This document shows, in pieces, positions 14,158 to 35,261 of a stretch of DNA of 64,000 bases (position 1 is its first letter; the number at the start of each line of letters is the position of its first letter). Below the pieces are notes generated by a model. The model saw nothing but the letters and a program-made list of their open reading frames with translations, made no database searches and had not been told where the DNA came from. Origin of the DNA: Rhodothermales bacterium. Its GTDB lineage: Bacteria; Bacteroidota; Rhodothermia; Rhodothermales; JANQRZ01. The DNA is taken from positions 1-64,000 of the forward strand of contig JANQRZ010000013.1 of NCBI GenBank assembly GCA_028284265.1, given 5' to 3'. A program made the position numbers and the translations under genes.

Positions 14158-14197
14158 CCGCGCCCCTTCCCTTCCGCCTATCAAGACCTACTTTCCT

Positions 14198-15601: not shown

Positions 15602-15610
15602 CACTCCACC

Positions 15611-16576
15611 ATGAACCACGCCACTCCCATGAAGAACTTTGCCCTCACCGGCGTCGCTGGATACATCGCGCCGCGCCACCTCAAGGCCATAGCTGAAACC
15701 GGCAACCGCCTCGTCGCCGCCGTCGATCCGCACGATTCGGTCGGTATCCTCGACCAGCACTTTCCGCAGGCGGCGTTCTTCACCGAGTTCGAGCGCTTCG
15801 ACCGGCACTTGGAGAAGCTCCGCCGTGGTCCGTCGAGCGAACGGGTCGATTACGTCACCATCTGCTCGCCGAACCATCTCCACGACGCGCATATCCGCCT
15901 CGCCCTTCGCGTCGGCGCAGACGCCATCTGCGAGAAGCCGCTGGTCATGAACCCCTGGAACCTTGACGTGCTGGCTGAGCTGGAGCGTGAGTACGAATGC
16001 TGTTCGGTCCACACGATTCTCCAACTTCGGGTCCACCCGGCCCTCCTCGCCCTGCGCGACAAGCTGGCGACCTCGGACAAGCGGCACGCCGTTCGGTTGA
16101 GCTACGTCACCTCGCGCGGGCAGTGGTACCGCTACTCGTGGAAGGGCGACCATAACAAGTCCGGCGGTGTAGCGACCAACATCGGTATCCACTTCTTCGA
16201 CCTACTGATCTGGCTCTTCGGCGGCGTCGAGAAGAGCGAGGTGCACCTGATGGAGGCCGAGCGCGCAGGCGGCTTCCTCGAACTCAAAAACGCCGACGTG
16301 CAGTGGTTCCTCTCCATCGATGGCAACGACCTGCCGGAGTCGGTCAAAGGCCAGCAGCCCACCTACCGCTCGATCACCGTCGACGGGGAGGAGATCGAGT
16401 TCTCCGGCGGCTTCCGCGACCTCCACACGGTGGTCTACGAGCAGACGCTCGCGGGCAACGGCTTCGGCATCGAAGACGCCCGTCCGTCCATCGAACTGGT
16501 ACACAACATTCGGACAGCGGAGGTCGAGGCAGCGCCGACGCTGCCCCATCCCTTTCTCAAGCTCGAAGTAGCCTGA
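15611..16576 (+). CDS. wbpB: UDP-GlcNAcA 3-dehydrogenase (WbpB/WlbA-like)
   Basis: This Gfo/Idh/MocA-family oxidoreductase oxidises C3 of UDP-GlcNAcA to the 3-keto sugar, the substrate for WbpE. The 321-residue protein has an N-terminal NAD fold (FALTGVAGYIAPRHLKA) and the family motif CEKPLV near residue 112. It also has NIGIHFFDLLIWLFGG, with a His typical of the active site, near residue 195. Length and sequence character match WlbA/WbpB (about 316-320 residues). A second ATG six codons in (15629) may be the true start. It follows wbpA after 9 nt. Confidence 0.88.
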   Translation: MNHATPMKNFALTGVAGYIAPRHLKAIAETGNRLVAAVDPHDSVGILDQHFPQAAFFTEFERFDRHLEKLRRGPSSERVDYVTICSPNHLHDAHIRLALRVGADAICEKPLVMNPWNLDVLAELEREYECCSVHTILQLRVHPALLALRDKLATSDKRHAVRLSYVTSRGQWYRYSWKGDHNKSGGVATNIGIHFFDLLIWLFGGVEKSEVHLMEAERAGGFLELKNADVQWFLSIDGNDLPESVKGQQPTYRSITVDGEEIEFSGGFRDLHTVVYEQTLAGNGFGIEDARPSIELVHNIRTAEVEAAPTLPHPFLKLEVA

Positions 16577-16593
16577 CCTCTCCACGCAGCCTG

Positions 16594-17277
16594 ATGACCG
16601 CCACCGCCATGGAACGCATCCGCGAGTTGCCCGGTGTCCGCATTCACGAGAGCGCGTATGTAGACGCGCCGTGTGAGATCGGCGAGGGTACCAGCATCTG
16701 GCACTTCAGCCACGTCCAGCCGGGCGCACGGATCGGGCGGGACTGCACGCTCGGTCAGAACGTCAATGTGGCGAATGATGTAGTGATGGGCGACCGGGTG
16801 AAGATCCAGAACAACGTCTCGATCTACACCGGCTGCGAGCTGGAAGACGAGGTGTTCCTCGGCCCGAGCTGCGTGCTGACGAACGTCACCAACCCGCGCT
16901 CGCAGGTCAACCGGCGTGGCCTCTACGAGCGGACGCTTTTCCGCCGAGGCGCGACCGTCGGCGCGAATGCCACCATCGTGTGTGGCATCACGCTCGGGCG
17001 CTACTGCTTTGTCGCCGCCGGGAGTGTGGTGACGAAGAACGTGCCGGACTACGCGCTCGTCGTCGGCAATCCGGCGCGGCAGCGCGGGTGGATGAGCCGC
17101 CACGGACACCTGCTTTCGCCCGACGCCGACGGCCTTGCCACCTGTCCTGAGTCCGGTCTTCGCTACCAAGAGGAGGGCGGCATCCTTCGCTGCCTCGACC
17201 TCGACGAAGAGGCCCCGCTGCCGGAGAGTATGACCGAAGGTGAACGCACCTATGACGATTTCAAACAACTCGCCTAA
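16594..17277 (+). CDS. wbpD: UDP-GlcNAc3NA N-acetyltransferase (WbpD/WlbB-like)
   Basis: This enzyme acetylates the 3-amino group made by WbpE, giving UDP-GlcNAc3NAcA. The 227-residue protein is a left-handed beta-helix acetyltransferase with hexapeptide repeats from about residue 20 to 165. WHFSHVQPGARIG, NVNVANDVVMGD and GANATIVCGITLG are typical of WbpD. A C-terminal tail of about 60 residues contains CPESGLRYQEEGGILRCL, a Cys pair not essential to the fold. The start at 16594 lies 17 nt after wbpB. The stop is followed almost at once by the aminotransferase start. Confidence 0.88.
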   Translation: MTATAMERIRELPGVRIHESAYVDAPCEIGEGTSIWHFSHVQPGARIGRDCTLGQNVNVANDVVMGDRVKIQNNVSIYTGCELEDEVFLGPSCVLTNVTNPRSQVNRRGLYERTLFRRGATVGANATIVCGITLGRYCFVAAGSVVTKNVPDYALVVGNPARQRGWMSRHGHLLSPDADGLATCPESGLRYQEEGGILRCLDLDEEAPLPESMTEGERTYDDFKQLA

Positions 17278-17278
17278 T

Positions 17279-18415
17279 ATGACCGCCACCGCCATTCCCA
17301 TCCTCGACTTGGAGCCGGAAATCGACGCGCTCTGGGACGAACTCAACGCCGCCTTCCAGCGCGTCCTCCGCTCGGGCCAGTTCATCAAAGGCCCCGAACT
17401 CGACGCCTTCGAGCGTGAGGTCGCCGACTACCTCGGCACCGCGCACGCCATCGGCGTCAACTCCGGCACCGACGCGCTCGTGATCGGGTTGCGGGCGCTC
17501 GAGATTAGCGAGGGCGACGAGGTCATCACGACACCGTTCTCGTTCTTCGCCACCGCCGAGTCGATCAGCGCCGTCGGCGCGACGCCCGTCTTCGCCGACA
17601 TCGATGCCCGGACGTTCAACCTCGACCCAGCCACCATCGAGCCGCTCATCACCGAGCGGACGGCGGCGATCATGCCGGTCCACCTCTACGGCTGCCCCGC
17701 CGAAATCGGGCCGATTATGGAGATCGCCGAGCGGCATGGGCTGACGGTGGTGGAGGACTGCGCGCAGTCGTTCGGCGCGCGGTTCGTGGATGCGAACGGC
17801 GGCGACGGCATGGCGATGTGGCACGGCAAGCAGACCGGCACGGTTGGGGCGGTCGGGGCCTACTCATTCTTCCCGTCCAAAAACCTCGGTGCCTTCGGCG
17901 ATGCCGGTCTCATCACGACTGACGATGACGCCGTCGCCGAGCACATGCGGAAGCTGCGGGCGCACGGCTCGCTCAAGAAGTACCACAACGAAGAGGTCGG
18001 TTACAACTCGCGCCTCGACGCGATGCAGGCCGCGTTCCTTCGGGTCAAGCTACCGCACATCGAAGATCAGAACGCAGGCCGCCGCCGTGTCGCCGAGACC
18101 TACAATCGGCTGCTCGAAAATGTCGAGGGCGTCGTCACGCCGCTCCTCACGCCGGGGCACGTCATGCACCAGTACACCGTCTGCGTCCTCGATGGAAAGC
18201 GCGATACCGTCGCCGCCACGCTCAAGGCGCAGGGCATCTCGACTATGATCTACTACCCGGTGCCGCAGAACCGCCTGCCGGTCTACGCCGACCTGAACAC
18301 GCCGTGCCCCGTTAGCGACCAACGTGCGAGCGAAGTCCTCAGCCTCCCGATCTGGCCTCAGCTCGACGAAGCCACGATCAGCCATGTGGTCGATGCCCTG
18401 ACCCGAGCGCTCTGA
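17279..18415 (+). CDS. wbpE: DegT/DnrJ/EryC1 aminotransferase (WbpE-like)
   Basis: This PLP enzyme aminates C3 of the keto sugar produced by WbpB. In the 378-residue protein the PLP-binding Lys is K201 (FFPSKNLGAFGDAG). Other family landmarks are GVNSGTDALVIGLRALEI, VITTPFSFFATAESI, the Asp in VVEDCAQSFGA and YNSRLDAMQAAFL. Start: the ATG at 17279 lies 1 nt after the wbpD stop, implying coupling; an in-frame ATG at 17252 would overlap wbpD and add nine residues. With wbpA, B and D it forms a complete block for UDP-GlcNAc3NAcA. Confidence 0.9.
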   Translation: MTATAIPILDLEPEIDALWDELNAAFQRVLRSGQFIKGPELDAFEREVADYLGTAHAIGVNSGTDALVIGLRALEISEGDEVITTPFSFFATAESISAVGATPVFADIDARTFNLDPATIEPLITERTAAIMPVHLYGCPAEIGPIMEIAERHGLTVVEDCAQSFGARFVDANGGDGMAMWHGKQTGTVGAVGAYSFFPSKNLGAFGDAGLITTDDDAVAEHMRKLRAHGSLKKYHNEEVGYNSRLDAMQAAFLRVKLPHIEDQNAGRRRVAETYNRLLENVEGVVTPLLTPGHVMHQYTVCVLDGKRDTVAATLKAQGISTMIYYPVPQNRLPVYADLNTPCPVSDQRASEVLSLPIWPQLDEATISHVVDALTRAL

Positions 18416-18430
18416 CGAAGCTCCAGACTG

Positions 18431-19819
18431 ATGCGCGAAGGGGGGATCATACATAGCGCGGTAGAGCGACTGACGAACCGGCTGCGCGGCGATTCCGGTT
18501 TGCGCGAATTGTCCTTGGGCGCGGGGTCAGCGTTTGCGATGCGGCTGGGTGGGAAAGGGATGGCCTATCTCTTTGCACTCGTCGTCGCGCAGACGCTCGG
18601 CGCGGCGGCATGGGGCCGTTTCTCGCTCGCCTTCATCTTGGTCAACCTCGGGGCGATTCTCTCGCTGCTCGGCCTCGACACCGTCGTGGTGCGCTTCGTG
18701 GCCGAGGCGCGTGCGGCGGAAGACAAGACCGAGGTGCGACGGGTGATCGGTCGCGCCCTCGCCATCGTATTGCCGTGGTCCGTGGGGATCGCTGCCGCGA
18801 CGTGGTTCGCTGCGCCCTTCATCGCCGACTCTGTTTTCAGCAAGCCACACCTGGCCGATTATTTCCAGCGGGCGGCGCTGGCAATTCCGCCATTCGCCGT
18901 CCTCGTCCTCGCCGCGCAAGCGTTGCGTGGCCTGAAGCGCGTCGCGGTCTCCGAGTTCACGCAGCAGGTGCTTCGCTCGGCGCTGCCGCTGGCAGCGCTC
19001 GTCGGGATGGTCGCGTTCGGGTCAGGGGATGTGCGGGTGATCGACGCCTTCCTCGTCGGGACGGCGCTCGCAGCGGTCGTTGCGGTCGGCGCGCTGGTCT
19101 GGGCGGTCAGCAAGCTCCCCCGTGCAGCAGGTATGGGACCGGCCTATCCGGTGAAGGTGCTCCTCGCCACGGCCTTCCCGCTCCTCTTCGCCAACTCGAT
19201 GATCTTCCTGAAAGGCTGGATCGACACGATCATGGTCGGCGCGTTTCTCGACGAGACGGCGGTGGGGGTCTACGACATCGCGTTCAAGCTGGCCGCGCTC
19301 GTCATCATCCCGCTCGGCGCAGTCAACAGCATCGCCGCACCCAAGTTTGCCGAGTTACGACAGGACCGCGCGGGGTTGCAACGCTTCGTTGGCTATGCCA
19401 CCACCGCCGCCGCGCTGTGCGCTGCTCCGGTGTTCCTCCTCCTCGTTGCCGTGCCCGGTTTCGTGCTTGGCCTCTTCGGCCCGGAGTACGCCCAAGGCGC
19501 GATAGCGCTCCGCATCATCGCTGCCGGGATGCTGGCGAGCGCGCTCGCAGGGAGCGTCGGCGTGTTCATGCAGATGACCGGGCGGCAGGTGGCCTATCAG
19601 GCGATCTCCTTCATCGTGGTGATAGCGAGCATCGCGTTGAGCTACGTCCTCATCCCGCGCTTCGGGATCAACGGGGCCGCGGTAGCGACGAGTGCGTCGC
19701 TCGTGCTCTTCAACGTCGTCGCGGTCGCCTACGTGTGGGCCACCGATCGGATCGCGACCGTGTGGACGCCGGGCCTGCTTCGCAGTGTGTGGCTTGGCAA
19801 AGCGGAGGTGTCCCGATGA
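18431..19819 (+). CDS. Wzx-like polysaccharide flippase
   Basis: This 462-residue polytopic membrane protein has 12-14 hydrophobic segments in the pattern of the MOP/PST exporter superfamily. Typical elements are GAAAWGRFSLAFILVNLGA near residue 58, LLFANSMIFLKGWIDTIMVG near 255 and YDIAFKLAALVIIPLGAV near 280. Such proteins flip undecaprenyl-linked repeat units to the periplasm, and its place beside a polymerase and glycosyltransferases supports this. Substrate specificity cannot be read. Its stop overlaps the next start by 4 nt (ATGA). Confidence 0.88.
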   Translation: MREGGIIHSAVERLTNRLRGDSGLRELSLGAGSAFAMRLGGKGMAYLFALVVAQTLGAAAWGRFSLAFILVNLGAILSLLGLDTVVVRFVAEARAAEDKTEVRRVIGRALAIVLPWSVGIAAATWFAAPFIADSVFSKPHLADYFQRAALAIPPFAVLVLAAQALRGLKRVAVSEFTQQVLRSALPLAALVGMVAFGSGDVRVIDAFLVGTALAAVVAVGALVWAVSKLPRAAGMGPAYPVKVLLATAFPLLFANSMIFLKGWIDTIMVGAFLDETAVGVYDIAFKLAALVIIPLGAVNSIAAPKFAELRQDRAGLQRFVGYATTAAALCAAPVFLLLVAVPGFVLGLFGPEYAQGAIALRIIAAGMLASALAGSVGVFMQMTGRQVAYQAISFIVVIASIALSYVLIPRFGINGAAVATSASLVLFNVVAVAYVWATDRIATVWTPGLLRSVWLGKAEVSR

Positions 19820-20835
19820 CGAAGCTGGCGTTCCTGCTCTATGACAACCGCTCCGGCTCGACGCTCCTGTCGGCGCTTCTGAGTGAGCGTGCGGGTGTGG
19901 CCGTCTCGCACGAGACCGACCTTGTACCCGCTGTGCTGGAAATCCCGGCGGGTCGCGGCGTTCTCGATGTCGCCGACCTCGTGGAGTATCTCTACGCCGA
20001 GACCCGCTTCGCCGAGCTAGACCTCCACCGCAAGGCGGTAGAGGCTGCGCTTCGGGCACAGGATGACACGGTCTCGCGTGAGGTCGCGCTGCAAACGCTG
20101 GTCCGCCACTACTTCGAGACGCACGCGCCCGAGGCCGAGGTATGGATCGTCAAAGGCCCGCGCCTGCATTACCACCTCGATGTGCTTGCCACCGCCTTTC
20201 CCGAAGCGACGGTGCTGCACCTCGTCCGCGACGGGCGTGCCGTCTTCCGCTCGAAGCGGACCACGCCTTCCGGCCACGCCCTCCGCACCGGCGAACGAGG
20301 CGTGATGGATGCCGACCTCGTCCGTGCGGCCCAGAACTGGCAGCGCAAACTCGACCTCGTCGAAGCGTTCGGTGGGTTGACGGTGCATACTACACGTTAC
20401 GAGGATGTCGTCCACGCGAAGGAGGCTTCGCTGCGCCGCATCTTGGAGACGCTAGGCGTCTCTGGTGCAGGACGCATTCGGAGCGGCTCGCGCGCCGATT
20501 TCGTTGACGGTCAGATTGGCGGCACCTACCATACGCTGCACGAAAACGTAGCCGGTGAGATGAAGCCGTCGCAAGTGTCGCAGTGGCAAGAGGACCTCAC
20601 TCCTGCTGAGATCGAAGCCTACGAAGGCCTCGCGGGTGGGGCGCTGGATCGGTACGGTTACGAACGACTCGCTACGTCAGAGTTTTGGGTACGGCGACAG
20701 GTCCGGTTGCTCGGCCTCCGGTTGCGGCGCGAAGGAAGTCGGTGGGCGGCGCTGGGTCGGGCCGTGCGGCGCGGCGACGCGATGCGCGTACTGCGTGGCA
20801 AAGCCTTCGAATGGAAAGCAAGCCGGGGTGGCTGA
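19816..20835 (+). CDS. Sulfotransferase family protein
   Basis: This 339-residue protein should transfer sulfate from PAPS to an acceptor, probably a sugar hydroxyl of the glycan built here. The 5'-phosphosulfate loop is visible as YDNRSGSTLLSALL at residues 9-22, and the 3'-phosphate motif as VLHLVRDGRAVFRSK near 135-150. A second region (TTRYEDVVHAKEASLRRIL) fits the usual RYEDL helix. It begins inside the stop codon of the flippase gene (ATGA), so translation is coupled. The PAPS-making sat-cysC gene lies 14 kb downstream on the same strand. Confidence 0.85.
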   Translation: MTKLAFLLYDNRSGSTLLSALLSERAGVAVSHETDLVPAVLEIPAGRGVLDVADLVEYLYAETRFAELDLHRKAVEAALRAQDDTVSREVALQTLVRHYFETHAPEAEVWIVKGPRLHYHLDVLATAFPEATVLHLVRDGRAVFRSKRTTPSGHALRTGERGVMDADLVRAAQNWQRKLDLVEAFGGLTVHTTRYEDVVHAKEASLRRILETLGVSGAGRIRSGSRADFVDGQIGGTYHTLHENVAGEMKPSQVSQWQEDLTPAEIEAYEGLAGGALDRYGYERLATSEFWVRRQVRLLGLRLRREGSRWAALGRAVRRGDAMRVLRGKAFEWKASRGG

Positions 20836-20840
20836 GAACG

Positions 20841-22127
20841 ATGCGAAAGCTGATTGCCTATCTCTTCCCGCTGGTCCTTCTGACCGACTGCATCGGCCCG
20901 CTCGTCGGGTTCGGGGGCATACACGCGGGGCACCTCAAGTACGGCATCTTCCTGTCCGTCATCGTGGTGACATCGCCGCGCTGGCGCTTGATGACGCCCG
21001 TGGTGGCCGTGCTCACGTTCCTCGTCTACATCACGGGGCTGGCGATGCTGGCCTCGGACTGGAGCAACTCGTTCAACGGCGTGATGCGGCTGTGGATCGC
21101 CTTCTCGATGTATCCAGTGATGGTGTCCGTGCTCCGAACACAGCAAGACGTGCTGGCCTTCCTCAAAGCACTTGTGGTCGGCTCAGTTATCGTTGTGGCG
21201 ACGTTTGGCGTGGCCCAGGTCTATCCGTGGGGATGGGAAGGGTACATGCGCGGGCGCGGCTTTAGCTATGGTGGGATGGGTGCCTACGCGACCTATGCGA
21301 TGGTCTACCTCGCCCTCGGAGGCCTGGCCGCGATGTCGCTCTGGCGAACCCGTCGGCAGCGGTTGTTTGCGCTCTTGGTCCACGTCCTCGCCGGTGTGAT
21401 CGTGATGATCTCGTTCCGGCGCGGTGCGATGGCTGGGATGATCGCGGGGTTCGCCGTGATCGTCCTGCTCGGCGGCGTCCGGCTGAGTCCGGGGCGGCTG
21501 CTGGGTGCCACAGCCCTCGCGGTTCCGATCATTGCGGCAGCCTTCTTCCTGTTCGGTGACAAAGTGACGGACCTCTACACGGCGCGCGTCACGCAGGGCG
21601 TCGAGTTTGAGATGGCCTCGCGGTTCGGGCGTGTCGCGGAGACGAAGCAGGTGTGGAGCGATTTCGCGAACGGCTCGCCCCGCCACATGCTCTTCGGGAC
21701 CGAGTTCTTCAACTCGACCGACATCTTCGAGTGGCTGCGCGAAGACCGTCCCATCCATATCGACTACAACGTGATGCTAGACGGAGCGGGGGCCGTCGGC
21801 CTGATCGGGTTCCTACTCGTCTACTTCCTCATCGCGCTGCGCTTCCGTGCCCGCTGGCGTCGGCTCTTCCGGTCGCGCTACGCCATCGGCATACGGGCCG
21901 TGTTCTGGGGCCTCCTCGCCACGAGCCTCATCTTCTCGGCGTCGAATCAACTCTGGGTCACGACCCCCTACGCACTATTCTTCGCCCTGCTCGGGGCGCT
22001 CCAGCGCAGCGCTGAACTCCTGCCCACGAAGCAGGCGGTTGCGGCGCGTGCTGGCGTGCCGGTGCAGCCGCTGCCGACCTCTGTACCTCACCCTGTTTAT
22101 ACCCAAGCCCATGCGCGTACTCCTTAA
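20841..22127 (+). CDS. O-antigen polymerase/ligase-like membrane protein (Wzy candidate)
   Basis: This 428-residue membrane protein has about ten hydrophobic segments and one large loop around residues 235-310, containing DIFEWLREDRPIHIDYN. This topology suits Wzy polymerases and WaaL-type ligases. The RGRGFSYGGMGAYATYA and FRRGAMAGMIAGFAVI stretches resemble the conserved Arg-rich loops of that superfamily. Next to a flippase the polymerase role is favoured. The start is uncertain: ATG 20841 lies 5 nt after the sulfotransferase stop, whereas ATG 20811 would overlap it. Confidence 0.82.
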   Translation: MRKLIAYLFPLVLLTDCIGPLVGFGGIHAGHLKYGIFLSVIVVTSPRWRLMTPVVAVLTFLVYITGLAMLASDWSNSFNGVMRLWIAFSMYPVMVSVLRTQQDVLAFLKALVVGSVIVVATFGVAQVYPWGWEGYMRGRGFSYGGMGAYATYAMVYLALGGLAAMSLWRTRRQRLFALLVHVLAGVIVMISFRRGAMAGMIAGFAVIVLLGGVRLSPGRLLGATALAVPIIAAAFFLFGDKVTDLYTARVTQGVEFEMASRFGRVAETKQVWSDFANGSPRHMLFGTEFFNSTDIFEWLREDRPIHIDYNVMLDGAGAVGLIGFLLVYFLIALRFRARWRRLFRSRYAIGIRAVFWGLLATSLIFSASNQLWVTTPYALFFALLGALQRSAELLPTKQAVAARAGVPVQPLPTSVPHPVYTQAHARTP

Positions 22128-23175
22128 CGCTCCTGCTCCCGAAAACCACGGCGGCGTTGCCAACTACTGCAAGGCCCTCCTGCCGCACTTCCGCACCGAC
22201 GTGGAGGTGATGCACCGAGGCTCGCGCCCCGGCGAATCGGGCACGGCAGCGCGGCTAGCCCGGCTGACACGGGATACCTCCCAGCTCCTTCGGACGCTCA
22301 AGGACGGGCAGTTCGATGTGGTCCACCAGAACACGTCATTCTATGGTCCCGGCATCGCCCGCGACGCCGTTCTCGCCAACCGGGCTAAGACCTCCGGCGC
22401 GAAGCTCTTTATCCGCCTTCATGGTTGGGATCATGGCTTCGAAGAGGCCTTCAACGGCCGGCGCTTCCGCTGGATCAAGCAGCAGTATTTCAACGCCGAC
22501 GCCATCGCGGTCGATGCCGAGGAGTACGAGCAGAAGATTCGCGCCTGGGGCTACGAGGGATCGATGTTCCGCGAAACGACGGTCGTTGACGATGCCCTCC
22601 TCGCGCAGCGACCCGAAGGAGAGCGTGCCCATCCGCCGACGGTCCTGTTTCTGGCTCGCCTCGCCGAGGACAAAGGCGTGATCGAGACGCTGGAGGCGAC
22701 ACGGCTCGCGCAGGAGCAGCACCCCGATCTCCACCTCGTGATCGCGGGCGAGGGGCCGGTGAAAGCCCGCGCCGAGGCGTGGGTTGCCGAGCGCGACATG
22801 CCCAACGTCCGCTTCACGGGCTACGTCCGCGACGCCGAAAAGGCCGCCGTCCTCGCCGACGCCGACCTCTACCTGCTGCCCACGCTCCACGGCGAAGGTT
22901 TGCCCACCTCGATCCTCGAAGCGATGGCCTTCGGGCTGCCCGTCGTCACCCGTCCTATGGGTGGCATCGGCGACCACCTTACCGACGGCGAACACGGCTT
23001 CCTCAGCGAACGCACCGATCCCGAAACCTTCGCTGGCTTCGTCACGCGGCTCGTGGAAGACGACACGCTGCGTCGCACCCAGGGCGAGCGCAACCGAACC
23101 GTTGCCCGCGAGCGGTACCTCGCCTCGACGGTCGCTGCCCGGCTCGAAGCAGCCTACGCCTCGCTGCTCAACTGA
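22111..23175 (+). CDS. GT4-family glycosyltransferase
   Basis: This 354-residue cytoplasmic or membrane-associated glycosyltransferase has the GT-B fold. The N-terminal domain carries the Gly-rich GGVANYCKALLPHF. The C-terminal donor domain has VLFLARLAEDKGV, LVIAGEGPVKA and the E-X7-E region LLPTLHGEGLPTSILEAMAFGLPVV, which binds the nucleotide sugar. Sugar and acceptor are unknown. It starts 17 nt inside the end of the polymerase gene, so it is coupled to it. Confidence 0.9.
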   Translation: MRVLLNAPAPENHGGVANYCKALLPHFRTDVEVMHRGSRPGESGTAARLARLTRDTSQLLRTLKDGQFDVVHQNTSFYGPGIARDAVLANRAKTSGAKLFIRLHGWDHGFEEAFNGRRFRWIKQQYFNADAIAVDAEEYEQKIRAWGYEGSMFRETTVVDDALLAQRPEGERAHPPTVLFLARLAEDKGVIETLEATRLAQEQHPDLHLVIAGEGPVKARAEAWVAERDMPNVRFTGYVRDAEKAAVLADADLYLLPTLHGEGLPTSILEAMAFGLPVVTRPMGGIGDHLTDGEHGFLSERTDPETFAGFVTRLVEDDTLRRTQGERNRTVARERYLASTVAARLEAAYASLLN

Positions 23176-23179
23176 CCGA

Positions 23180-24391
23180 ATGCTCGTCATGCGTCCCGAC
23201 GCCTATACCGGCTTCTCGTTTGCCGATGCGCTGGAGCGCGTGCTCGGGTATGCCGAGGCGCGGGGCTTCGCCGGGCCGGACCCCTACGACCTTCTCGCCT
23301 CGCCGCTCCCGCTGCGGTCGCTGCCCCCCGTCGTCTCGTTTGCGCTGACGCAGCTCCATAAGCGCAACCCGTTCAGTCTGCGCCGGGCGCTCAAGATTCC
23401 GCCCGTCCTGATGCCGAAAGCGGCGGGCCTCTTCCTCAAAGCCTACGCCCTCCGCCACGGCCAGACCGGCGTCTACGGCGCGCAGATGACGGAACTGTTC
23501 GACTGGATCGTCGAGCACAGCGTCGAGACCGAGCACGGATGGTCGTGGGGACTGCCCTACGCTTATTCGTCGCTGACGAAGTTCCAGTCGCCCAACACGC
23601 CCTCGGCGGTGGTGACGGCCTTCATCCACGACGGCGTCTGCGAATACCTGCGCGTGACAGGCGACGAGCGGGCGCGAGCCGTCATCGAGGCGGCCACAGC
23701 GTTCATCATCCACGACCTCCCCCGGACCGAACGGGACGACGGGCTGTGCTTCAGCTACACGCCGATCCAGCGCGACGAGTGCTTCAACGCGAACGCGCTC
23801 GTCGCCCGCCTCCTCGCGCAGACCTATGCGGTGACGGGCGATGAGCACCTCCGCGATCTCGCCCGTCGAAGCGTCGATTACACGCTGGCTCGCCAACAGC
23901 CCGAAGGGTTCTGGAACTATCGGATCAAAAGCGACGGCACCGAGAAGCGGCAGATCGACTTCCACCAGGGGTTCATCCTCGATTCGCTGATGGACTACGC
24001 CGCCGCGACGGGCGACGACGACCCGGCGCTCCGCGATGCCATCAAGCGCGGGGCACGGTTCTACCGCGACGAGCAGTTCACCGCCGACGGGCGCGCCCTC
24101 TGGCGCTGGCCGAAAGCCTGGCCTGCCGACATCCACAATCAGGCCCAGGGCATCATCACCTTCTCGAAGCTCGGCGACCTCGACACGGCAGCACGGATCG
24201 CAGCCTGGACGCTAGACCATATGCGCGATGCAGACGGCGCGTTCATCTACCGCCGGGGTCGCCTGATCCAGAACCAGGTCCGCCACATGCGCTGGGGGCA
24301 GGCGTGGATGGCGCTGGCCCTCGCCGAACTGCTCGTCGCCCTCGCCGCCGAGACCGACCCTGTCCGGCAGGCCCAACCCACCACGCCATGA
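23180..24391 (+). CDS. Alpha/alpha-toroid protein of the polysaccharide locus
   Basis: This 403-residue protein looks all-helical with repeated helical hairpins. Examples are AFIHDGVCEYLRVTGDERARAVIEAATAFI, LVARLLAQTYAVTGDEHLRDLARRSVDY and FILDSLMDYAAATGDDDPALRDAIKRGA, typical of an (alpha/alpha)6 or (alpha/alpha)7 barrel. Such barrels occur in glycoside hydrolases, polysaccharide lyases and uronyl C5-epimerases. Aromatics and acidic residues (GWSWGLPYAYSS, FHQGFILD, WRWPKAWPADIHNQ) line the hairpin tops as in sugar-active enzymes. I cannot name the reaction. It starts 4 nt after the glycosyltransferase stop and overlaps the next gene by ATGA. Confidence 0.75.
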   Translation: MLVMRPDAYTGFSFADALERVLGYAEARGFAGPDPYDLLASPLPLRSLPPVVSFALTQLHKRNPFSLRRALKIPPVLMPKAAGLFLKAYALRHGQTGVYGAQMTELFDWIVEHSVETEHGWSWGLPYAYSSLTKFQSPNTPSAVVTAFIHDGVCEYLRVTGDERARAVIEAATAFIIHDLPRTERDDGLCFSYTPIQRDECFNANALVARLLAQTYAVTGDEHLRDLARRSVDYTLARQQPEGFWNYRIKSDGTEKRQIDFHQGFILDSLMDYAAATGDDDPALRDAIKRGARFYRDEQFTADGRALWRWPKAWPADIHNQAQGIITFSKLGDLDTAARIAAWTLDHMRDADGAFIYRRGRLIQNQVRHMRWGQAWMALALAELLVALAAETDPVRQAQPTTP

Positions 24392-25194
24392 CCCGCGACT
24401 TCACGCTCGACGCCTACGCCCGCCTGCTCCGGGCTGCCCAAGACGCTGGCTATCGGCTCGTCTCCTTCGCCCACTACGTCCGCGAGGCGCACCGCGAGGA
24501 CCGCGTGCTCGTCCTCCGTCACGACGTAGACCGGCGGCCCGGACGCTCACTCGCCAAGGCCCGGCTCGAAGCCGACCTGGGAGCCGAGGCGACCTACTTC
24601 TTCCGCATCGTTCCGGAGAGTTACGACGAGGCGATCATGCGCGCCATCGCCGACCTCGGGCACGAGATCGGGTACCACTACGAAGACCTGACGCTCGCCC
24701 GAGGCGACATGGAGCAGGCCGCCAATCTCTTCGCCGAGCACCTCGCCCGGTTCCGCACGGTCTATCCCGTCGAGACGATCTGCATGCACGGCAGTCCGCT
24801 CTCGCGGTGGGACAACCGGAGCCTTTTTCAGGAGGTTGATTACCACAAGCACGACATCCTCGCCGAGCCGTACTTCGACCTCAACTTCGACCGCATCTTC
24901 TACCTCACCGACACCGGGCGGCGGTGGGATGGAGCGTCGGTCGGTGTCCGCGACAAAGTGGCCTCGAAGTTCGAACACTCGTTCCACACGACCGCCGAGA
25001 TCGTCGCGGCGTTGGAGCAGGGTACGATGCCCGACCACGTCATGATCAACACGCACCCCGAGCGGTGGCTCGACCACCTCGGCGCGTGGACCGGCGACCT
25101 CGTCGTGCAGCAGGCGAAAAACGTCGTCAAGTGGGGCCTCGTCCGGCTCGGCCACGGACGCACAGCGGCTCCGACCGCGGGGGTAGGGGCATGA
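24388..25194 (+). CDS. Polysaccharide deacetylase-like protein
   Basis: This 268-residue protein has the NodB-like pattern. LVLRHDVDRRPGRS near residue 43 holds the Asp-Asp-type motif (here HDVD), and HEIGYHYEDL near 93 corresponds to the second motif with metal-ligand His residues. CMHGSPLSRWDNR and DHVMINTHPERW supply later conserved positions. Carbohydrate esterase family 4 enzymes remove N- or O-acetyl groups from sugars. It is cytoplasmic by sequence (no signal peptide), so it may act on a lipid-linked or nucleotide-linked intermediate, or do another job. ATGA overlaps link it to the genes on both sides. Confidence 0.75.
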   Translation: MTRDFTLDAYARLLRAAQDAGYRLVSFAHYVREAHREDRVLVLRHDVDRRPGRSLAKARLEADLGAEATYFFRIVPESYDEAIMRAIADLGHEIGYHYEDLTLARGDMEQAANLFAEHLARFRTVYPVETICMHGSPLSRWDNRSLFQEVDYHKHDILAEPYFDLNFDRIFYLTDTGRRWDGASVGVRDKVASKFEHSFHTTAEIVAALEQGTMPDHVMINTHPERWLDHLGAWTGDLVVQQAKNVVKWGLVRLGHGRTAAPTAGVGA

Positions 25195-26024
25195 GCCGAC
25201 CCGCCACCCCGCTCTTCGTTCTCTCGACGGGCCGCGCCGGGACGAACTATCTCCAGCGCCTCCTTGCTCGCGTCGAAGGTGCGCCCGACGTGCCGCATCA
25301 GCAGGCCGGGGCGCGTCTCCTGAATTTGGTCGGCACCGCAACATTTCAGTTTGGGCAGCCTGCCCTCGCCGGATGTGTGCTCCGCGCCGTACGTAGCGAA
25401 CAGGTCTTCGCCTCGACGGCGGACCCGCTGCTGACGATGGCGCTGTTGCAAACGCTGCCCACCGACACCGACGCCACCATCTTTCATCTCGTCCGCGATC
25501 CGCGTGACTTCGTCCGGTCGTTCCTGAACTGGAAGCGGCAGTCGGCCAAGCGGACAGTTCTGCACCACGCCGTCCCGCTGTGGCAGCCGAACCCGTGGCT
25601 CGCGGGTGATGCGGGCTTCGCCGAGAGTCTGGCGATGGGCAAGTTCGAGCGCTTCGCGTGGGTCTGGGCTTACAAGAACCAGGCGATCATTAACCGCTTC
25701 GGTACCCACCCGAGCTACCACCGCTTCCGGCTCGAAGACCTCACGGGCGAAGACGGGTCGGCGGAGACCAAGCGGTTGCTTGCCGCGCTCGGTTTGGAAG
25801 CCCACACGCTCGCCGAGAACGAGGAGCAGCAGCGGGTCAACAAAAGTCGCGACCTCTTCCCGAAGTGGAACGACTGGACGCCCCGGCAAGCTGCCGTGCT
25901 GCATCGCCGCGCAGGCGCGCTGATGGACAGGCTCGGCTACGGCGGCGAACCAGCCTGGCTTGACCTCCTGCACACGACCCCGGCATCCACCACCGAACCC
26001 GCCCTTGCCGGGGTTGCTCACTAG
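25191..26024 (+). CDS. Second sulfotransferase family protein
   Basis: This 277-residue protein has a PAPS loop at residues 10-22 (LSTGRAGTNYLQRLL) and the 3'-phosphate motif TIFHLVRDPRDFVRS near 100. YHRFRLEDLTGEDGSAETKRLLAALG fits the family's C-terminal helix. It is only loosely similar to the first sulfotransferase, so the two probably act at different positions or on different sugars. The start overlaps the deacetylase-like stop (ATGA). I chose it over upstream in-frame starts because the PAPS loop then lies at the usual distance from the N-terminus. Confidence 0.85.
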   Translation: MSRPATPLFVLSTGRAGTNYLQRLLARVEGAPDVPHQQAGARLLNLVGTATFQFGQPALAGCVLRAVRSEQVFASTADPLLTMALLQTLPTDTDATIFHLVRDPRDFVRSFLNWKRQSAKRTVLHHAVPLWQPNPWLAGDAGFAESLAMGKFERFAWVWAYKNQAIINRFGTHPSYHRFRLEDLTGEDGSAETKRLLAALGLEAHTLAENEEQQRVNKSRDLFPKWNDWTPRQAAVLHRRAGALMDRLGYGGEPAWLDLLHTTPASTTEPALAGVAH

Positions 26025-26051: not shown

Positions 26052-27143
26052 GTGCCCAACCTCGTGCTCGACTCCCCGCCTGTTCCTGTCGTCAACTTGG
26101 CGCGCCAGACGACGCCGCTCAAGGTGCTCTTCGAACTGGCCCACCCCAAGCACTTCCACCAGTTCCGCAGCGTCGCCGAGGCGGGCGGCGAGGCCTTCGA
26201 GACGACCTACCTCGCCAAAGACAAAGACGTGACGGTGGACCTCGTGCGCGAGGCCGGGTTGCCGTACCTACCCTACGGTCGCCGGGGCAAGACGCTGACC
26301 CAGAAAGTGGGCGCGGCGTTCAAGACGACGACCGACCTCGACCGGGCGGCTCGGCAGGTCGGAGCCGAACTGATCGTGAGTCGGTCTTCGCCCTATGCCA
26401 CGCTGATGGCGAAGGTGCGCTCGTACCGCTCGGTGGTGATGGTCGATAGCGAGGTGGTGCCGCTCATCAATTACTTCGTCGGGCCGCTCGCCGACCTCGT
26501 CGTCACGCCCGCGCACTTCCCGCACACGTTCCGCAACCACGTCCGCGTCGAAGGCGTGTTCGAGGAGTGCTACCTCCACCCGGACACGTTCGCGCCGGAT
26601 GCCTCGCGGATCGAAGCAGCCGGGTTGCGCCCCGACGAGCCGTTCAGCGTCGTCCGATTCGTCGGTTGGGACGCCAACCACGACGTGGGGCAGGGTGGCT
26701 TCACCGAGGCCGACAAGATCAACCTCGTCGAGCGGCTCTCGAAGCACGGGCAGGTCGTTATCTCCAGCGAAGCGTCGCTGCCGCCCTCGCTCGAACCCTA
26801 TCGGCTCCGGCTACCCGCCTCGGACCTCCATTCGCTGATCCACTACGCTTCGCTCTACGTCGGCGACAGCCAGTCGATGGCGACCGAGGCCGCGCTCCTT
26901 GGCACCCCCTCGGTGCGGTTCAACTCGTTCGTCGGGCCGGACGACATGATGAACTTCGTCGTGCTGGAGAACGAGCACGACCTGCTTCGCAACGCGCGCT
27001 CTGCCACCGAAGCCATCGAGATTTCGGAGACGGCGCTGGCGGAGCGATGGAAGCCTGTCTGGGAAGCCCGCCGCGACGCCTACTTCGCCAGTCGGCCCCC
27101 GCTCTCCCGTCAGCTTGCCGACGTGCTACTCGACTTCGCCTGA
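26052..27143 (+). CDS. DUF354 family protein (GT-B-like)
   Basis: This 363-residue protein starts with GTG. It matches the DUF354 family, which is related in fold to UDP-GlcNAc 2-epimerases and GT-B glycosyltransferases. Recognisable parts are LKVLFELAHPKHFHQFRS near the start, LIVSRSSPYATLMAKVR, VVRFVGWDANHDVGQGGF and the C-terminal donor-site-like LYVGDSQSMATEAALLGTPSVR. Function is unproven; here it may be a glycosyltransferase or a sugar-nucleotide enzyme. It directly precedes the UDP-GlcNAc 2-epimerase-like gene. Confidence 0.8.
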   Translation: MPNLVLDSPPVPVVNLARQTTPLKVLFELAHPKHFHQFRSVAEAGGEAFETTYLAKDKDVTVDLVREAGLPYLPYGRRGKTLTQKVGAAFKTTTDLDRAARQVGAELIVSRSSPYATLMAKVRSYRSVVMVDSEVVPLINYFVGPLADLVVTPAHFPHTFRNHVRVEGVFEECYLHPDTFAPDASRIEAAGLRPDEPFSVVRFVGWDANHDVGQGGFTEADKINLVERLSKHGQVVISSEASLPPSLEPYRLRLPASDLHSLIHYASLYVGDSQSMATEAALLGTPSVRFNSFVGPDDMMNFVVLENEHDLLRNARSATEAIEISETALAERWKPVWEARRDAYFASRPPLSRQLADVLLDFA

Positions 27144-27176: not shown

Positions 27177-28268
27177 ATGAAAGTCATTTCCGTCATCGGG
27201 GCACGGCCCCAGTTCGTCAAGGCCGGGCCGCTCTCGAAAGCGCTCCGCCGCGCCGGTCACCACGAGGTGATCGTCCACACCGGCCAGCACTACGACGCTG
27301 CCATGTCCGACCAGATTTTTACCGATCTGGAGATTCCGGCCCCGGACTACAACCTCGACGTGCGCTCCGGCTCGCACGGCGCGCAGACCGGCAAGATGCT
27401 CGCCGCGCTCGAAGTCGTCTTCCAAGACGAGCAGCCCGATCTCGTCATCGTCTTTGGCGATACGAACACGACGATTGCCGCCGCTCTCGCCGCGTCGAAG
27501 CTGCACCAGAAAGTGCTCCACATCGAAGCCGGGCTGCGGAGCTTCAACCGGACCATGCCCGAGGAGATCAACCGCGTCCTCACTGATCACTGCGCCGATT
27601 TCCTCTTCGCCCCGACCGACACCGCCGTCGAAAACCTCGCCCGCGAGGGGCTGGCGCACCGCACCTACCGCGTCGGTGACATCATGGTGGACAGCCTGCT
27701 GGACCGGCTGGAGATCGCCCGCGAGCGGTCGGACATTCTGGAGCGCGTCGGCGTGGAGGAGGGGGCGTATTTCCTGCTCACGCTCCACCGGCCCTACAAC
27801 GTGGACGACCCGCAGCGTCTCGGCGCGATGCTCGATGCGCTCGGGAGTCTCGGCGCGCCGGTCGTCTTCCCGGCGCACCCGCGCACGCGGGCCGTGCTGG
27901 AGCAGCACGCCATCGCCGTGCCCGACACGGTGCATCTGTTGGAGCCGCAAGGCTTCCTCGACTTCGTCCGACTCGAACACGGGGCCACCAAAATCCTGAC
28001 CGACTCCGGCGGCGTGCAGAAGGAAGCGTACATTCTCGGCAAACCCTGCATCACCCTGCGCCCGGAGACCGAGTGGGTCGAGACGGTCGAGGTCGGCTGG
28101 AACGTACTCGCCGACCCCGAGGCCGAGGGCTTCGCCGACCTCGTTGCAGGCTTCCAGCCCGAGGGCGAGCAGCCGGACCTGTTCGGACACGACGTAGCGG
28201 AGGAGATGGTGCGCTGCATCGAGCGCGTCATGCCGGACCCGCACACGGCTTGGGCGGAAACCCCGTAG
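27177..28268 (+). CDS. wecB: UDP-GlcNAc 2-epimerase family (WecB/WbpI-like)
   Basis: This 363-residue non-hydrolysing epimerase has VIGARPQFVKAGPL at the start, VHTGQHYDAAMSDQ, VFGDTNTTIAAALAA, LHIEAGLRSFNRTMPEEINR and LTDSGGVQKEAYILGKPC. These cover the UDP-binding and catalytic residues of the family. WecB makes UDP-ManNAc from UDP-GlcNAc. WbpI does the same on UDP-GlcNAc3NAcA to give UDP-ManNAc3NAcA. With wbpA, B, D and E in the same locus the WbpI role is the better guess, although the gene lies 9 kb from them. Confidence 0.92.
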   Translation: MKVISVIGARPQFVKAGPLSKALRRAGHHEVIVHTGQHYDAAMSDQIFTDLEIPAPDYNLDVRSGSHGAQTGKMLAALEVVFQDEQPDLVIVFGDTNTTIAAALAASKLHQKVLHIEAGLRSFNRTMPEEINRVLTDHCADFLFAPTDTAVENLAREGLAHRTYRVGDIMVDSLLDRLEIARERSDILERVGVEEGAYFLLTLHRPYNVDDPQRLGAMLDALGSLGAPVVFPAHPRTRAVLEQHAIAVPDTVHLLEPQGFLDFVRLEHGATKILTDSGGVQKEAYILGKPCITLRPETEWVETVEVGWNVLADPEAEGFADLVAGFQPEGEQPDLFGHDVAEEMVRCIERVMPDPHTAWAETP

Positions 28269-28433: not shown

Positions 28434-29534
28434 ATGGCTTATCCACCACTTCAAGCGAGCACCACGTTCGACGTTCCGGCATTCGATGCCGTGACAGTGG
28501 CGCGGCGAGCGGAAAGCCTTTCCGAACCGGCACGCCCATCGGTCATCGGCACAACGATCACCCGCAAGGAGCGAGTCCAGACGCAGGTTGTGGCAACGAT
28601 CGACCGGGCCGTGATCGAAGACTTGCCTGACGGGACAGAAACCATCGTGAACTGCGCTCGCCTCAATGATGTCCGCTACCTCAACAAGTTCTTCGAGGCG
28701 GTGAACGCGGCACTGCCGAAGGGCGGTACGTTCGCCGGGTGTGTCGAGACCTCGGAGCAGCGCAAGCGGGCGGTGCTGGCGTCACGTCCCGCGTGGCTCG
28801 CTCGACCGATGTACGCTGCCGAATTCTTTTTCACTCGCGCCCTCCCGAAGCTGAAGCTGACGCAGCGGCTCTACTTCGCCCTGACCAAAGGTCGCAACCG
28901 GGCCTTCTCGAAAGCCGAGGTGCTCGGTCGGCTGGTCTCGTGCGGGTTCGAGATCGTCGAGCACTATGAGGGCGAGGACGGGCTGTTCCACTTCGTCGTT
29001 CGCAAGGAGCGCACGCCGGTCTTTGACGATAGCCCGTCCTACGGGCCGGTCTTCAAAATGAAGCGCGTCGGGCGCGGCGGCGAGCCGGTCTACGTCTACA
29101 AGCTCCGCACGATGCACCCGTACTCGGAGTATCTGCAGGCCTACCTCTACGCCACCAACAATCTCGACGCGAGCGGCAAGTTCAAGGACGACTTCCGCAT
29201 CACGACGTGGGGCCGCACCTTCCGCAAGCTCTGGATCGACGAGCTGCCGATGCTCCTCAACTGGCTGCGCGGCGACCTCCAACTCGTCGGCGTCCGCCCG
29301 ATCTCCGAGCACTACCTGAGCCTCTACCCCGACGACCTCGCCGAGCGGCGCTGCCGCCACAAGCCCGGCCTCGTCCCGCCGTTCTACGCCGACCTGCCCA
29401 ACGGCTTCGAGGAAGTCCTCGACTCCGAGGCCGCGTACCTGGAGGCCTACGAGCGCGCCCCGGTGCGGACCAACCTCCGCTACTTCGGGCGGGCGATGTA
29501 CAACATCTTCGTCAAGCGCGCGCGCAGCCAATAG
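28434..29534 (+). CDS. Bacterial sugar transferase, Bacteroidota-type long form
   Basis: It probably transfers a sugar phosphate from a nucleotide sugar to undecaprenyl phosphate, starting the repeat unit. Of 366 residues, the C-terminal 170 are the catalytic domain: YGPVFKMKRVGRGGEPVYVYKLRTMHPYSEYLQ, then DFRITTWGRTFRKLWIDELPMLLNWLRGDLQLVGVRP. The N-terminal half has no clear membrane segment and resembles a shortened methyltransferase-like region (SKAEVLGRLVSCGFEIVEHY) instead of the usual re-entrant membrane helix. This layout is known to me from Bacteroidota proteins annotated only as sugar transferase. It is the last gene of the locus and is followed by a strong terminator. Confidence 0.85.
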   Translation: MAYPPLQASTTFDVPAFDAVTVARRAESLSEPARPSVIGTTITRKERVQTQVVATIDRAVIEDLPDGTETIVNCARLNDVRYLNKFFEAVNAALPKGGTFAGCVETSEQRKRAVLASRPAWLARPMYAAEFFFTRALPKLKLTQRLYFALTKGRNRAFSKAEVLGRLVSCGFEIVEHYEGEDGLFHFVVRKERTPVFDDSPSYGPVFKMKRVGRGGEPVYVYKLRTMHPYSEYLQAYLYATNNLDASGKFKDDFRITTWGRTFRKLWIDELPMLLNWLRGDLQLVGVRPISEHYLSLYPDDLAERRCRHKPGLVPPFYADLPNGFEEVLDSEAAYLEAYERAPVRTNLRYFGRAMYNIFVKRARSQ

Positions 29535-32434: not shown

Positions 32435-33223
32435 ATGCTCGAACGCATCCGTCAGATCGCCGAAGAAGCCGGTCTCAAAATCCTCGACCACTACGACGAC
32501 GAGGTCCCCGTCGACTACAAGGCCGATGACTCGCCGCTGACGCAGGCCGACCGCGCCGCGCACCACCTGATCGTGGACCGTCTCCGCGCCGCGTTTCCGG
32601 ATATCCCGGTGCTCTCCGAGGAGTCGCCCGAGGACGAGATCGCCGACCGCCGGAGTTGGACGCGCTTCTGGCTCGTCGACCCGCTCGATGGCACGAAGGA
32701 GTTCATCAAGAAGACCGGCCAGTTCACCGTCAACATTGCGCTGATCGAAGATGGTGAGGCAGTGCAGGGCGTGGTCCATGTCCCGGCGCAGAAGGTGACT
32801 TACTTCGCCGAGCGCGGCGCGGGGGCCTTCCGCCAGAACGGCGAGGGTGAGCCGACGCCCATCGAGATTCGCAAAGCCGAGCCGAAGCACCTCACCGTCG
32901 TGGCGAGCCGCGACCATGCCGGGCCGGAGGTGGGGGCGATTTTAGAGAAGATGGCCGCCGCGGGCGTCGAGGTCGAGTCGGCGTCGATGGGTAGCTCACT
33001 CAAGTTCTGCCTCGTCGCCGAAGGCGCGGCGGACCTCTATCCCCGGACCGTCCCGACGATGGAGTGGGACACGGCGGCGGCGCAGTGCATCGTCGAGACC
33101 GCGGGCGGGCAGGTGACGACGCTCGACGGGACGCGCCTCAGCTACAACAAGGAGAGCCTCCGCAACCCGTCGATCATGACGGCGGGCGACACGGCACTCG
33201 ACTGGAAACAGTATCTCGGCTAG
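32435..33223 (+). CDS. cysQ: 3'(2'),5'-bisphosphate nucleotidase
   Basis: CysQ hydrolyses PAP, the product left when sulfotransferases use PAPS, to AMP and phosphate, relieving inhibition. The 262-residue protein is in the inositol-monophosphatase fold family. ADDSPLTQADRAAH near residue 31 and VLSEESPED near 58 supply acidic ligands. WLVDPLDGTKEFIKKTGQFTVNIAL near 80 is the metal-binding signature with the CysQ-specific TKEFI. EWDTAAAQCIVETAGG near 215 closes the site. It starts a plus-strand block with the permease and sat-cysC, all tied to sulfate activation. Confidence 0.93.
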   Translation: MLERIRQIAEEAGLKILDHYDDEVPVDYKADDSPLTQADRAAHHLIVDRLRAAFPDIPVLSEESPEDEIADRRSWTRFWLVDPLDGTKEFIKKTGQFTVNIALIEDGEAVQGVVHVPAQKVTYFAERGAGAFRQNGEGEPTPIEIRKAEPKHLTVVASRDHAGPEVGAILEKMAAAGVEVESASMGSSLKFCLVAEGAADLYPRTVPTMEWDTAAAQCIVETAGGQVTTLDGTRLSYNKESLRNPSIMTAGDTALDWKQYLG

Positions 33224-33292
33224 GCGCTTGCTTTTCCATCCGTAGCCGCCGATATCGGGCGTGTACGTCTTCCGATCCCCGACCCTCGACCT

Positions 33293-35089
33293 GTGACCCC
33301 CGACTCGATCTCGCTTGGCTGGGAGGCGTGGTACACGCTCGGCGCGCTCGTCGTGATGACGGCGGGCCTCGTGGCAAACATCGCTCGTCCCGACCTTGTC
33401 CTGCTCGGCACGCTTGGGCTACTGCTCTTGGCAGGCGTCGTGTCGCCGACGGACGCCTTTTACGGGCTGTCGAACCCGGCGGTGGTGACGGTCGGGGCGC
33501 TGTTCGTCGTGGCGGCAGGCGTCGAGAGAACGCGGGCGCTTGCCTTTCTGGATCGCCTCGTAGCCACGCCAGGACGGGCGAAAGCAGGCGGCATTCTCGC
33601 CCGCGTCATGCCGATTACGTCGGTGCTGTCGGGCTTCCTGAACAACACGCCGGTCGTGGCAATGCTGATTCCGCGCCTCGAAGAGTGGGGGCGAAAACGC
33701 GGCGTGCCCGCCTCGAAGCTGCTGATCCCGCTTTCCTACGCCGCCATCCTTGGCGGGATGCTCACGCTCGTCGGCGCGTCCACGAACGTCGTCGTCCACG
33801 GCTTGCTGCTGGCTGAGGGGTTGCCGGGGTTCAATATGTTCGACTTCGCGTGGATCGGCGTCCCCGTCGTCATCATCGTGGCCGTGTACTTCGTTCTGAT
33901 TGGACATCGCACGCTTCCGGCGACCGAGGGCGGCGAGGGGCGGCGGGCGCAGCTCCGCGACTACCACTTCGACGTTCGTGTGTCGAGCCAGGCCACATTC
34001 AGGGGGCAGACCATTGAGGAGGCCGAGCTTCGGACGCTGGGTGATGCGTACCTCGCCCACATCCGTCGCGGCGACCGCATCATCGCCGCGAGTCCCGATG
34101 AAGTGTTGGAGTCGGGCGATGTGTTGACGTTCGTCGGAGATGTCAGTGTTCTTGACGAGTTGCTGAAGCGGCCGGGGTTGGAGCGCAAAGTCTCTGCAAT
34201 CGAGACGCAGGACCGCCTGCGCGACCCGCACGAGTTGGTGCTGTATGAAGCCGTCGTCGCTATCTCCTCGTTTCTGACGGGACGGACGCTGAAAGAGGCC
34301 AACTTCCGCGAACGCTACCGGGGCGTGGTCCTCGCCATCCACCGTCGGGGCGAGCGGATTACCGGCTCACTCGGCCAGACCCCGCTCAAGGCGGGTGACC
34401 TATTGCTGGTCGAAGCGGGACCGTACTTCGACCACTACGATGCGCCAAGCCGCGACGAGTTTTACTACGTCGCCCCGGTTGAGCAGCGTGTAGAGAAGGC
34501 GAGCCGCCGTGCGCCCATTGCGCTCGCGCTGCTCATCGGTATGGTGACCGTGGCGGCGACGGGTCTCGTACCCCTGACCGTTGCGGCATTCTGTGCAGCG
34601 CTCGGGATGGTGGTCGTCGGCTGTGTCAGCGGGCCGAGCGCTCGCCAGGCTATTGACCTATCGGTGCTACTGGTGATCGCGGGCGCGCTCGGGATCGGAA
34701 AGGCCGTCGAGTCCACAGGGCTGGCTGATGCGGCCGCCCATCTTATCACAGGCATCGCCTCCGATGCCGGGCCGCTCGTCGCGCTCATCTTGATCTATAT
34801 CACAGCCAACGTCCTCTCCGAGTTGATTACCAACAAGGCATCAGCCGTGCTAGTGTTTCCGGTCGCCCTGTCCGTCGCCGCCGAACTCGGGGCCGAGCCA
34901 AAGGCCTTCGCGCTCGCCGTGACGATTGCAGCGGCGGCGAGCTTCCTGACCCCCATCGGCTACCAGACGAACCTCATGGTGATGGGGCCGGGCGGCTACC
35001 GCTACACCGACTACGTCAAGGCCGGGTTGCCCGTCTCAATTACCGTCGCGACCATCGCCATCGCGGTGATCCACTTCGTCTGGTTGTGA
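33293..35089 (+). CDS. SLC13-family permease with two TrkA-C domains (probable sulfate importer)
   Basis: This 598-residue membrane protein has hydrophobic blocks at both ends (residues about 10-205 and 400-598). Two cytoplasmic TrkA-C (RCK_C) domains lie between them, at about 225-295 and 315-380. The transport signatures are GFLNNTPVVAMLIPRL near 110 and LSELITNKASAVLVFPVAL near 510, a two-fold repeated NxxP-type motif of SLC13/DASS carriers. Relatives carry sulfate or dicarboxylates with sodium. Its place between cysQ and sat-cysC favours sulfate. GTG start at 33293. Confidence 0.87.
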   Translation: MTPDSISLGWEAWYTLGALVVMTAGLVANIARPDLVLLGTLGLLLLAGVVSPTDAFYGLSNPAVVTVGALFVVAAGVERTRALAFLDRLVATPGRAKAGGILARVMPITSVLSGFLNNTPVVAMLIPRLEEWGRKRGVPASKLLIPLSYAAILGGMLTLVGASTNVVVHGLLLAEGLPGFNMFDFAWIGVPVVIIVAVYFVLIGHRTLPATEGGEGRRAQLRDYHFDVRVSSQATFRGQTIEEAELRTLGDAYLAHIRRGDRIIAASPDEVLESGDVLTFVGDVSVLDELLKRPGLERKVSAIETQDRLRDPHELVLYEAVVAISSFLTGRTLKEANFRERYRGVVLAIHRRGERITGSLGQTPLKAGDLLLVEAGPYFDHYDAPSRDEFYYVAPVEQRVEKASRRAPIALALLIGMVTVAATGLVPLTVAAFCAALGMVVVGCVSGPSARQAIDLSVLLVIAGALGIGKAVESTGLADAAAHLITGIASDAGPLVALILIYITANVLSELITNKASAVLVFPVALSVAAELGAEPKAFALAVTIAAAASFLTPIGYQTNLMVMGPGGYRYTDYVKAGLPVSITVATIAIAVIHFVWL

Positions 35090-35261
35090 AGAAACCGTTC
35101 CCGGATTTAGGCCTGACCGGGGCATGGTCGATATCCATTGTGGACACCGCATGATGCGTGTAAGCAGTTTGTGAGGAGAATACCTCCCGGGTTGAACCTA
35201 GCGGCAGCTTTAGGCATTTTCCGGCCTCCTCCTTTTCCTCTCCCGTAATCCCAGTTTTATA

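Follow-up and report, generated by a model that had tools for sequence, protein, structure and literature searches.

Three adjacent genes in a polysaccharide locus of a Rhodothermales bacterium encode an alpha/alpha-toroid protein, a NodB-like protein and a sulfotransferase. This raises the question of whether they form a bacterial module with the three activity types that act together in heparan sulfate synthesis, as the original prediction suggested, and of what the toroid does. We analysed the locus within a window, the whole stretch of 64,000 nucleotides under study, and followed its genes in other genomes. The source genome measures 3.69 Mb, and the nearest named relatives of its toroid belong to Rhodothermaceae MAGs (80% and 43% identity).

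All three genes are open frames on the + strand: the toroid gene (23180-24391, 403 aa), the NodB-like gene (24388-25194, 268 aa) and the sulfotransferase 2 gene (25191-26024, 277 aa). As had been noted, they are consecutive and overlap by exactly 4 nt, through ATGA start/stop overlaps between toroid and deacetylase (24388..24391, +) and between deacetylase and sulfotransferase 2 (25191..25194, +). The preceding GT4 gene ends at 23175, leaving a 4-nt gap and no overlap. The junction between wzx and sulfotransferase 1 at 19816 is also ATGA, and the other junctions in the gene run overlap or are at most 40 nt apart. Across the 72 long ORFs of the window, an ATGA end with a substantial downstream frame was found only in these three cases on the + strand, plus one or two on the opposite strand. 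So few cases place the overlaps above chance, yet they are ordinary operon packing, and the trio is probably translationally coupled. By inspection, a signal peptide was not evident in any of the three proteins, which are thus placed in the cytoplasm, where they appear to act before Wzx.

The locus has genes for a Wzz-kinase and for a nucleotide-sugar dehydrogenase, a Gfo/Idh protein, a hexapeptide acyltransferase and a DegT aminotransferase, the latter four resembling a Wbp-like UDP-di-N-acetyl-uronate pathway (14126..18415, +). In place of GlcA/GlcNAc, these sugar-nucleotide genes suggest a di-N-acetylated uronic acid, a product that we infer from family and gene order for four enzymes that pass no equivalog cut-off. 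The locus continues on the + strand with a Wzx flippase (18431..19819, PF01943/PF13440), the 339-aa sulfotransferase 1 (19816..20835), a Wzy-like polymerase (20841..22127, approximate start; weak PF04932 match, E 6.7e-4, below cutoff) and a GT4 glycosyltransferase (22111..23175, PF00534). Sulfotransferase 1, which the original prediction did not mention, is far clearer than the one in the trio (PF13469, 83 bits) and has weak similarity to NoeE. After the trio come a DUF354-like GTB-fold protein (26052..27143, +; PF04007 18.5 bits, below cutoff), a non-hydrolysing UDP-sugar 2-epimerase of WecB/WbpI-like type (27177..28268, +; TIGR00236 309 bits) and an initiating sugar-phosphate transferase, PHPT (28434..29534, +; PF02397). 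A Wzi-like capsule assembly protein is encoded on the opposite strand (30504-32186, -) and suggests that the polymer is attached to the surface.

A complete PAPS supply for making and recycling the sulfate donor lies 6 kb from the trio (32435..36980, +). It consists of CysQ (32435-33223, TIGR01331), an anion symporter of DASS/CitMHS type (33293-35089, PF03600) and Sat-CysC (35262-36980, PRK05537), all on the + strand. The straightforward reading of these genes is that the locus makes a sulfated extracellular polysaccharide. By description, synechan-type sulfated exopolysaccharide clusters (PMC8205485) are likewise Wzx/Wzy loci with sulfotransferases. In kind, then, this is an ordinary sulfated Wzx/Wzy polysaccharide locus with a member of an uncurated, widespread toroid family aboard. 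Further along, the window also encodes a bacterial alpha-2-macroglobulin of 1892 aa (38178-43856, -).

The NodB fold predicted for the second protein was supported by its structure model (AF2 pLDDT 82.7), which has the deformed TIM barrel of CE4/NodB enzymes. Despite no Pfam model matching the protein, CE4 deacetylases lead its meaningful Foldseek matches, with a probability of about 1.0 and a TM of only about 0.4-0.56. D46, D48, H92, H97, H134 and H223 are invariant among 14 relatives (alignment A2), and the Asp/His motifs resemble CE4 motifs 1, 2 and 5. The protein differs from CE4/NodB enzymes in having HDVD for TFDD. It also departs from the CE4 Asp-His-His triad at H(S/T)xxH, where H97 is in place but the residue four positions later is something other than His; the protein has further invariant His and Glu residues available. 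With this second canonical metal His (H-x3-H) missing, its metal site would differ. WbmS is a tentative candidate name for this deacetylase family. Stop codons interrupt two of its relatives (L137 and L138, in genomes G062 and G188), which are perhaps decaying genes.

The third protein just passed the sulfotransferase model PF13469 (27.1 bits, cutoff 27.0), in keeping with the predicted class. Inspection revealed recognisable PAPS-binding motifs, a 5'-PSB P-loop STGRAGTNYLQ and a 3'-PB motif RDPRDFVRSFLNW, and sulfotransferase 2 is predicted to be PAPS-dependent.

AlphaFold and Foldseek agree on the (alpha/alpha) toroid fold of the first protein, modelled as a single helical (alpha/alpha)6 toroid (AF2 pLDDT 95.1, pTM 0.93). 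The structural comparison that had been proposed for this 403-residue protein returned both epimerase and glycoside hydrolase neighbours: AGE epimerases came first, followed by GH76, terpene cyclases and GH88, and the neighbours include cellobiose 2-epimerase, GlcNAc 2-epimerase and D-mannose isomerase. The glucuronyl C5-epimerase GlcE was absent from the 50 best matches. In the 59-member toroid family (alignment A1), the only invariant columns are Y193, N203, G243, Y247 and H262, with the acids D34, D37 and D317 also rated invariant. The conserved residues lie in what is the active-site funnel of such toroids, at the N-termini of the inner helices and in the loops that lead into them.

Single-sequence searches against Pfam were equivocal. 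The toroid matched GH88 at 5e-6, with 26.2 bits just under the cutoff of 26.6, and Pec_lyase at 0.005, while PF06662, the GlcE-type family, had no match in the window toroid or its own genome up to E 10. Weak matches among the 59 relatives were divided between Pec_lyase (23), GH88 (22) and PF06662 (7). We therefore built GlcE-type (PF06662), AGE and GH88 profiles from related genomes and aligned each to the toroid profile with hhalign. The GlcE-type profile was the best of the three (E 6.6e-9, probability 96), followed by AGE (E 2.9e-6), and GH88 had no profile-level match (E 0.78). The background between toroids of different function can be gauged from AGE against the GlcE-type profile, at 1.6e-5. 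We regard the toroid as most likely an isomerase, and we put the chance that it is a cytoplasmic uronate C5-epimerase acting on a lipid-linked repeat at about even.

The original prediction held that the toroid could equally be a hydrolase or lyase. A glycoside hydrolase or polysaccharide lyase of GH88, GH76 or PL10-like type, trimming or recycling the repeat unit, would fit the single-sequence matches of the toroid and its relatives, the GH76 and GH88 structures among its Foldseek matches and the invariant acids D37 and D317. Together with D34, these acids leave room for a hydrolase. Yet the GH88 identity was dropped on the profile comparison, and the 59 relatives show no conserved adjacent Asp-Asp pair of GH76 type. 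The toroid is constantly linked to biosynthetic genes, and a hydrolase that lacks an export signal would cleave its own precursor inside the cell. The C5-epimerase reading thus survived these tests better, and we regard hydrolysis or lysis as a possible but doubtful activity. An identity with AglQ was also tried and rejected, as at most 5 of the 16 residues listed for it (PMC3827465) recurred in archaeal toroids at any offset, in a crude test where insertions would hide homology.

The other candidate is an AGE-like 2-epimerase or a different sugar isomerase whose substrate would be free or nucleotide-linked, for example ManNAc derivatives. The AGE superfamily, with its cellobiose and glucose 2-epimerases, shares the (alpha/alpha)6 fold and provides the best Foldseek E-values (TM about 0.6). 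Cellobiose 2-epimerase is also among the PDB profile matches, and the toroid often lies near WecB. However, the likeness is at fold level, with 11-17% identity, the profile match is weaker than that to GlcE, and a 2-epimerase is already supplied by WecB. We consider an AGE-like role unlikely.

For the C5-epimerase reading, the conserved residues can be compared with the GlcE active site. Our GlcE-type proteins are true relatives of the enzyme: human GlcE (6HZZ) was matched by one of them at E 3.8e-31, and the EEY, NG, YDL and YH motifs lined up. The best register places E189, Y190, N200, Y246 and Y261 of this protein on S192, Y193, N203, Y247 and H262 of the toroid. The catalytic residues of GlcE are E499, Y500, N510, Y560 and Y578 (PMC13308652), so in this modestly favoured register all four polar invariants (Y193, N203, Y247 and H262) coincide with catalytic positions (Y500, N510, Y560 and Y578). 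Eight archaeal plasmid toroids outside the alignment keep Y193, Y247 and H262, and all but one, which has Asp, keep N203. Four toroid relatives on haloarchaeal plasmids (L188, L189, L190 and L191) are labelled 'antibiotic ABC transporter permease', apparently by mistake, as a helical toroid of this kind is soluble.

The register itself has an edge of only about tenfold. With circular shifts allowed by doubling the toroid profile, it scored 4.2e-8 against 3.8e-7 and 4.8e-6 for others, and the fact that other helix registers also score indicates that the repeats give generic similarity. Conserved columns help to drive the aligner; without realignment the Y190 and Y246 pairs move, while N200-N203 stays. 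A single GlcE-type sequence gave no significant alignment to the toroid profile. The active-site match as read from these alignments is suggestive and falls short of proof.

The toroid shares with GlcE and bacterial PF06662 enzymes a helical catalytic domain and, in the best register, the Tyr/Asn/Tyr positions. It differs in about four extra C-terminal helices and in the replacement of E499 by Ser (S192) and Y578 by His (H262). In eukaryotic GlcE the helical domain is preceded by beta-hairpin and beta-sandwich domains, both of which are missing from the toroid model. One genome (G163) carries both a toroid (L073) and a genuine PF06662 GlcE-type protein (L203), at separate loci. None of 13 PF06662 genes had DUF354 in its neighbourhood, and we rejected the idea that they are drop-in substitutes in the DUF354 neighbourhood of the toroid. 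Near one PF06662 GlcE-type gene (L197), two sulfotransferase-like genes lie a few genes away, possibly marking a sulfated-uronate locus.

Another parallel by description is Agl32 of Halobacterium salinarum, a C5-epimerase acting on a DolP-linked sulfated glycan (2026 paper, PMC13308652). The prediction for Agl32 is one helical domain, most like cellobiose 2-epimerase, D-mannose isomerase and GlcNAc 2-epimerase. According to the same paper its catalytic residues are not known, and the established glucuronyl C5-epimerases of prokaryotes are just one from bacteria and one from archaea (PMC13308652). The window toroid, compared with Agl32 by description, is likewise a single helical toroid with the same Foldseek neighbours, in a glycan-assembly gene cluster and with a cytoplasmic lipid-linked glycan containing sulfated uronates as its putative setting. 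Agl32 differs in its own role, acting on GlcA in N-glycosylation. The sulfotransferases of its glycan, Agl30 and Agl31, were annotated as alkaline-phosphatase-domain proteins (PMC11980604), and such proteins turn up repeatedly in the vicinity of archaeal toroids and deacetylases. The toroids of Haloferax mediterranei and H. lucentense come directly after wbpD-E-B-A-wecB-deacetylase, where the deacetylase is annotated 'polysaccharide deacetylase family' and is at most a candidate for the window type. In Halobaculum, a member of the window's deacetylase family follows wbpD-E-B-A with an overlap.

The toroid family is uncurated and spread over bacteria and archaea. Relatives were found in 33 of 394 Bacteroidota genomes, the source genome included, and in Archaea, Acidobacteria, Chloroflexi, Zixibacteria and others. 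One relative (L096, G066:C95:13205-14374) lies inside a 1265-aa open frame and is possibly a fusion. Within 5 kb on both sides of the toroid at 46 loci, we counted DUF354 28 times, the deacetylase family five times and a sulfotransferase once; a few of these loci are duplicates, and some cross-reaction of our in-house profiles among related GT-B families is possible. The order that recurs begins with asparagine synthase or GT and continues through bi-domain oxidoreductase, toroid and DUF354 to PHPT, and proteins annotated as DUF354 adjoin archaeal toroids. Most deacetylase loci also have DUF354 nearby. Recurring near both toroid and deacetylase, DUF354 is the conserved hub; in the window, the two modification genes sit between it and the toroid.

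Among the toroid loci and the 394 genomes examined, the intact trio occurs only in the window. Toroid and deacetylase are direct neighbours at two other loci (L044 and L072), and relatives of sulfotransferase 2 occur in two other genomes of the 394. A genome of the same class (G143) keeps wbpA, wbpE, wzx, GT4, sulfotransferase 2, DUF354, deacetylase, wecB, PHPT, wbpB and wbpD, with the toroid absent. In a sister MAG whose toroid is 80% identical (L036), the contig ends at the toroid, and neither deacetylase nor sulfotransferase 2 was found elsewhere in the assembly. The three activity types are plausible, but epimerase, deacetylase and sulfotransferase are not jointly conserved. Although the three types are adjacent, probably translationally coupled and close to a PAPS supply, we reject a heparan-sulfate-like N-deacetylase/N-sulfotransferase/C5-epimerase module on a heparosan-type polymer as very improbable, because the trio is not conserved as a unit, which the original prediction had itself named as counting against it, the sugar genes are Wbp-type, all parts appear cytoplasmic, and nothing in the locus points to a heparosan backbone or its synthase. 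Heparan is a long polymer modified in the Golgi, whereas the window trio would modify a lipid-linked repeat ahead of Wzx.

Our preferred reading, which we hold to be about as likely true as false, is that the trio comprises cytoplasmic tailoring enzymes of a Wzx/Wzy locus for a sulfated, uronate-containing capsule or exopolysaccharide, with the toroid inverting C5. The gene order, the folds, the PAPS pathway and the conservation are shown by the analysis; the substrate, the order of steps and the C5-epimerase activity we infer as follows. PHPT would start the repeat unit, and GT4 and perhaps the DUF354 protein would extend it, incorporating an N-acetylated uronic acid that the Wbp-like enzymes supply. 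On the undecaprenyl-linked repeat, the toroid would invert the uronate at C5, using a GlcE-like Tyr/Asn/Tyr site in which His replaces the last catalytic Tyr. The NodB-fold protein would take off an N-acetyl group, sulfotransferase 2 would add sulfate from PAPS, and Wzx would flip the unit after this tailoring.

More broadly, we tentatively raise the possibility that the toroid, perhaps together with Agl32, represents a family of cytoplasmic uronyl C5-epimerases that is widespread among bacteria and archaea and so far uncatalogued. Such enzymes would use a Tyr/Asn/Tyr/His site on lipid-linked repeats, including those with di-N-acetylated uronates, and DUF354 proteins would be their functional partners. 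If the family are C5-epimerases, Y193, N203, Y247 and H262 are direct candidates for catalytic residues, and a function could be assigned to many proteins now called 'hypothetical' or 'antibiotic ABC transporter permease'. Where the L-uronates of many bacterial and archaeal glycans come from would then become testable.
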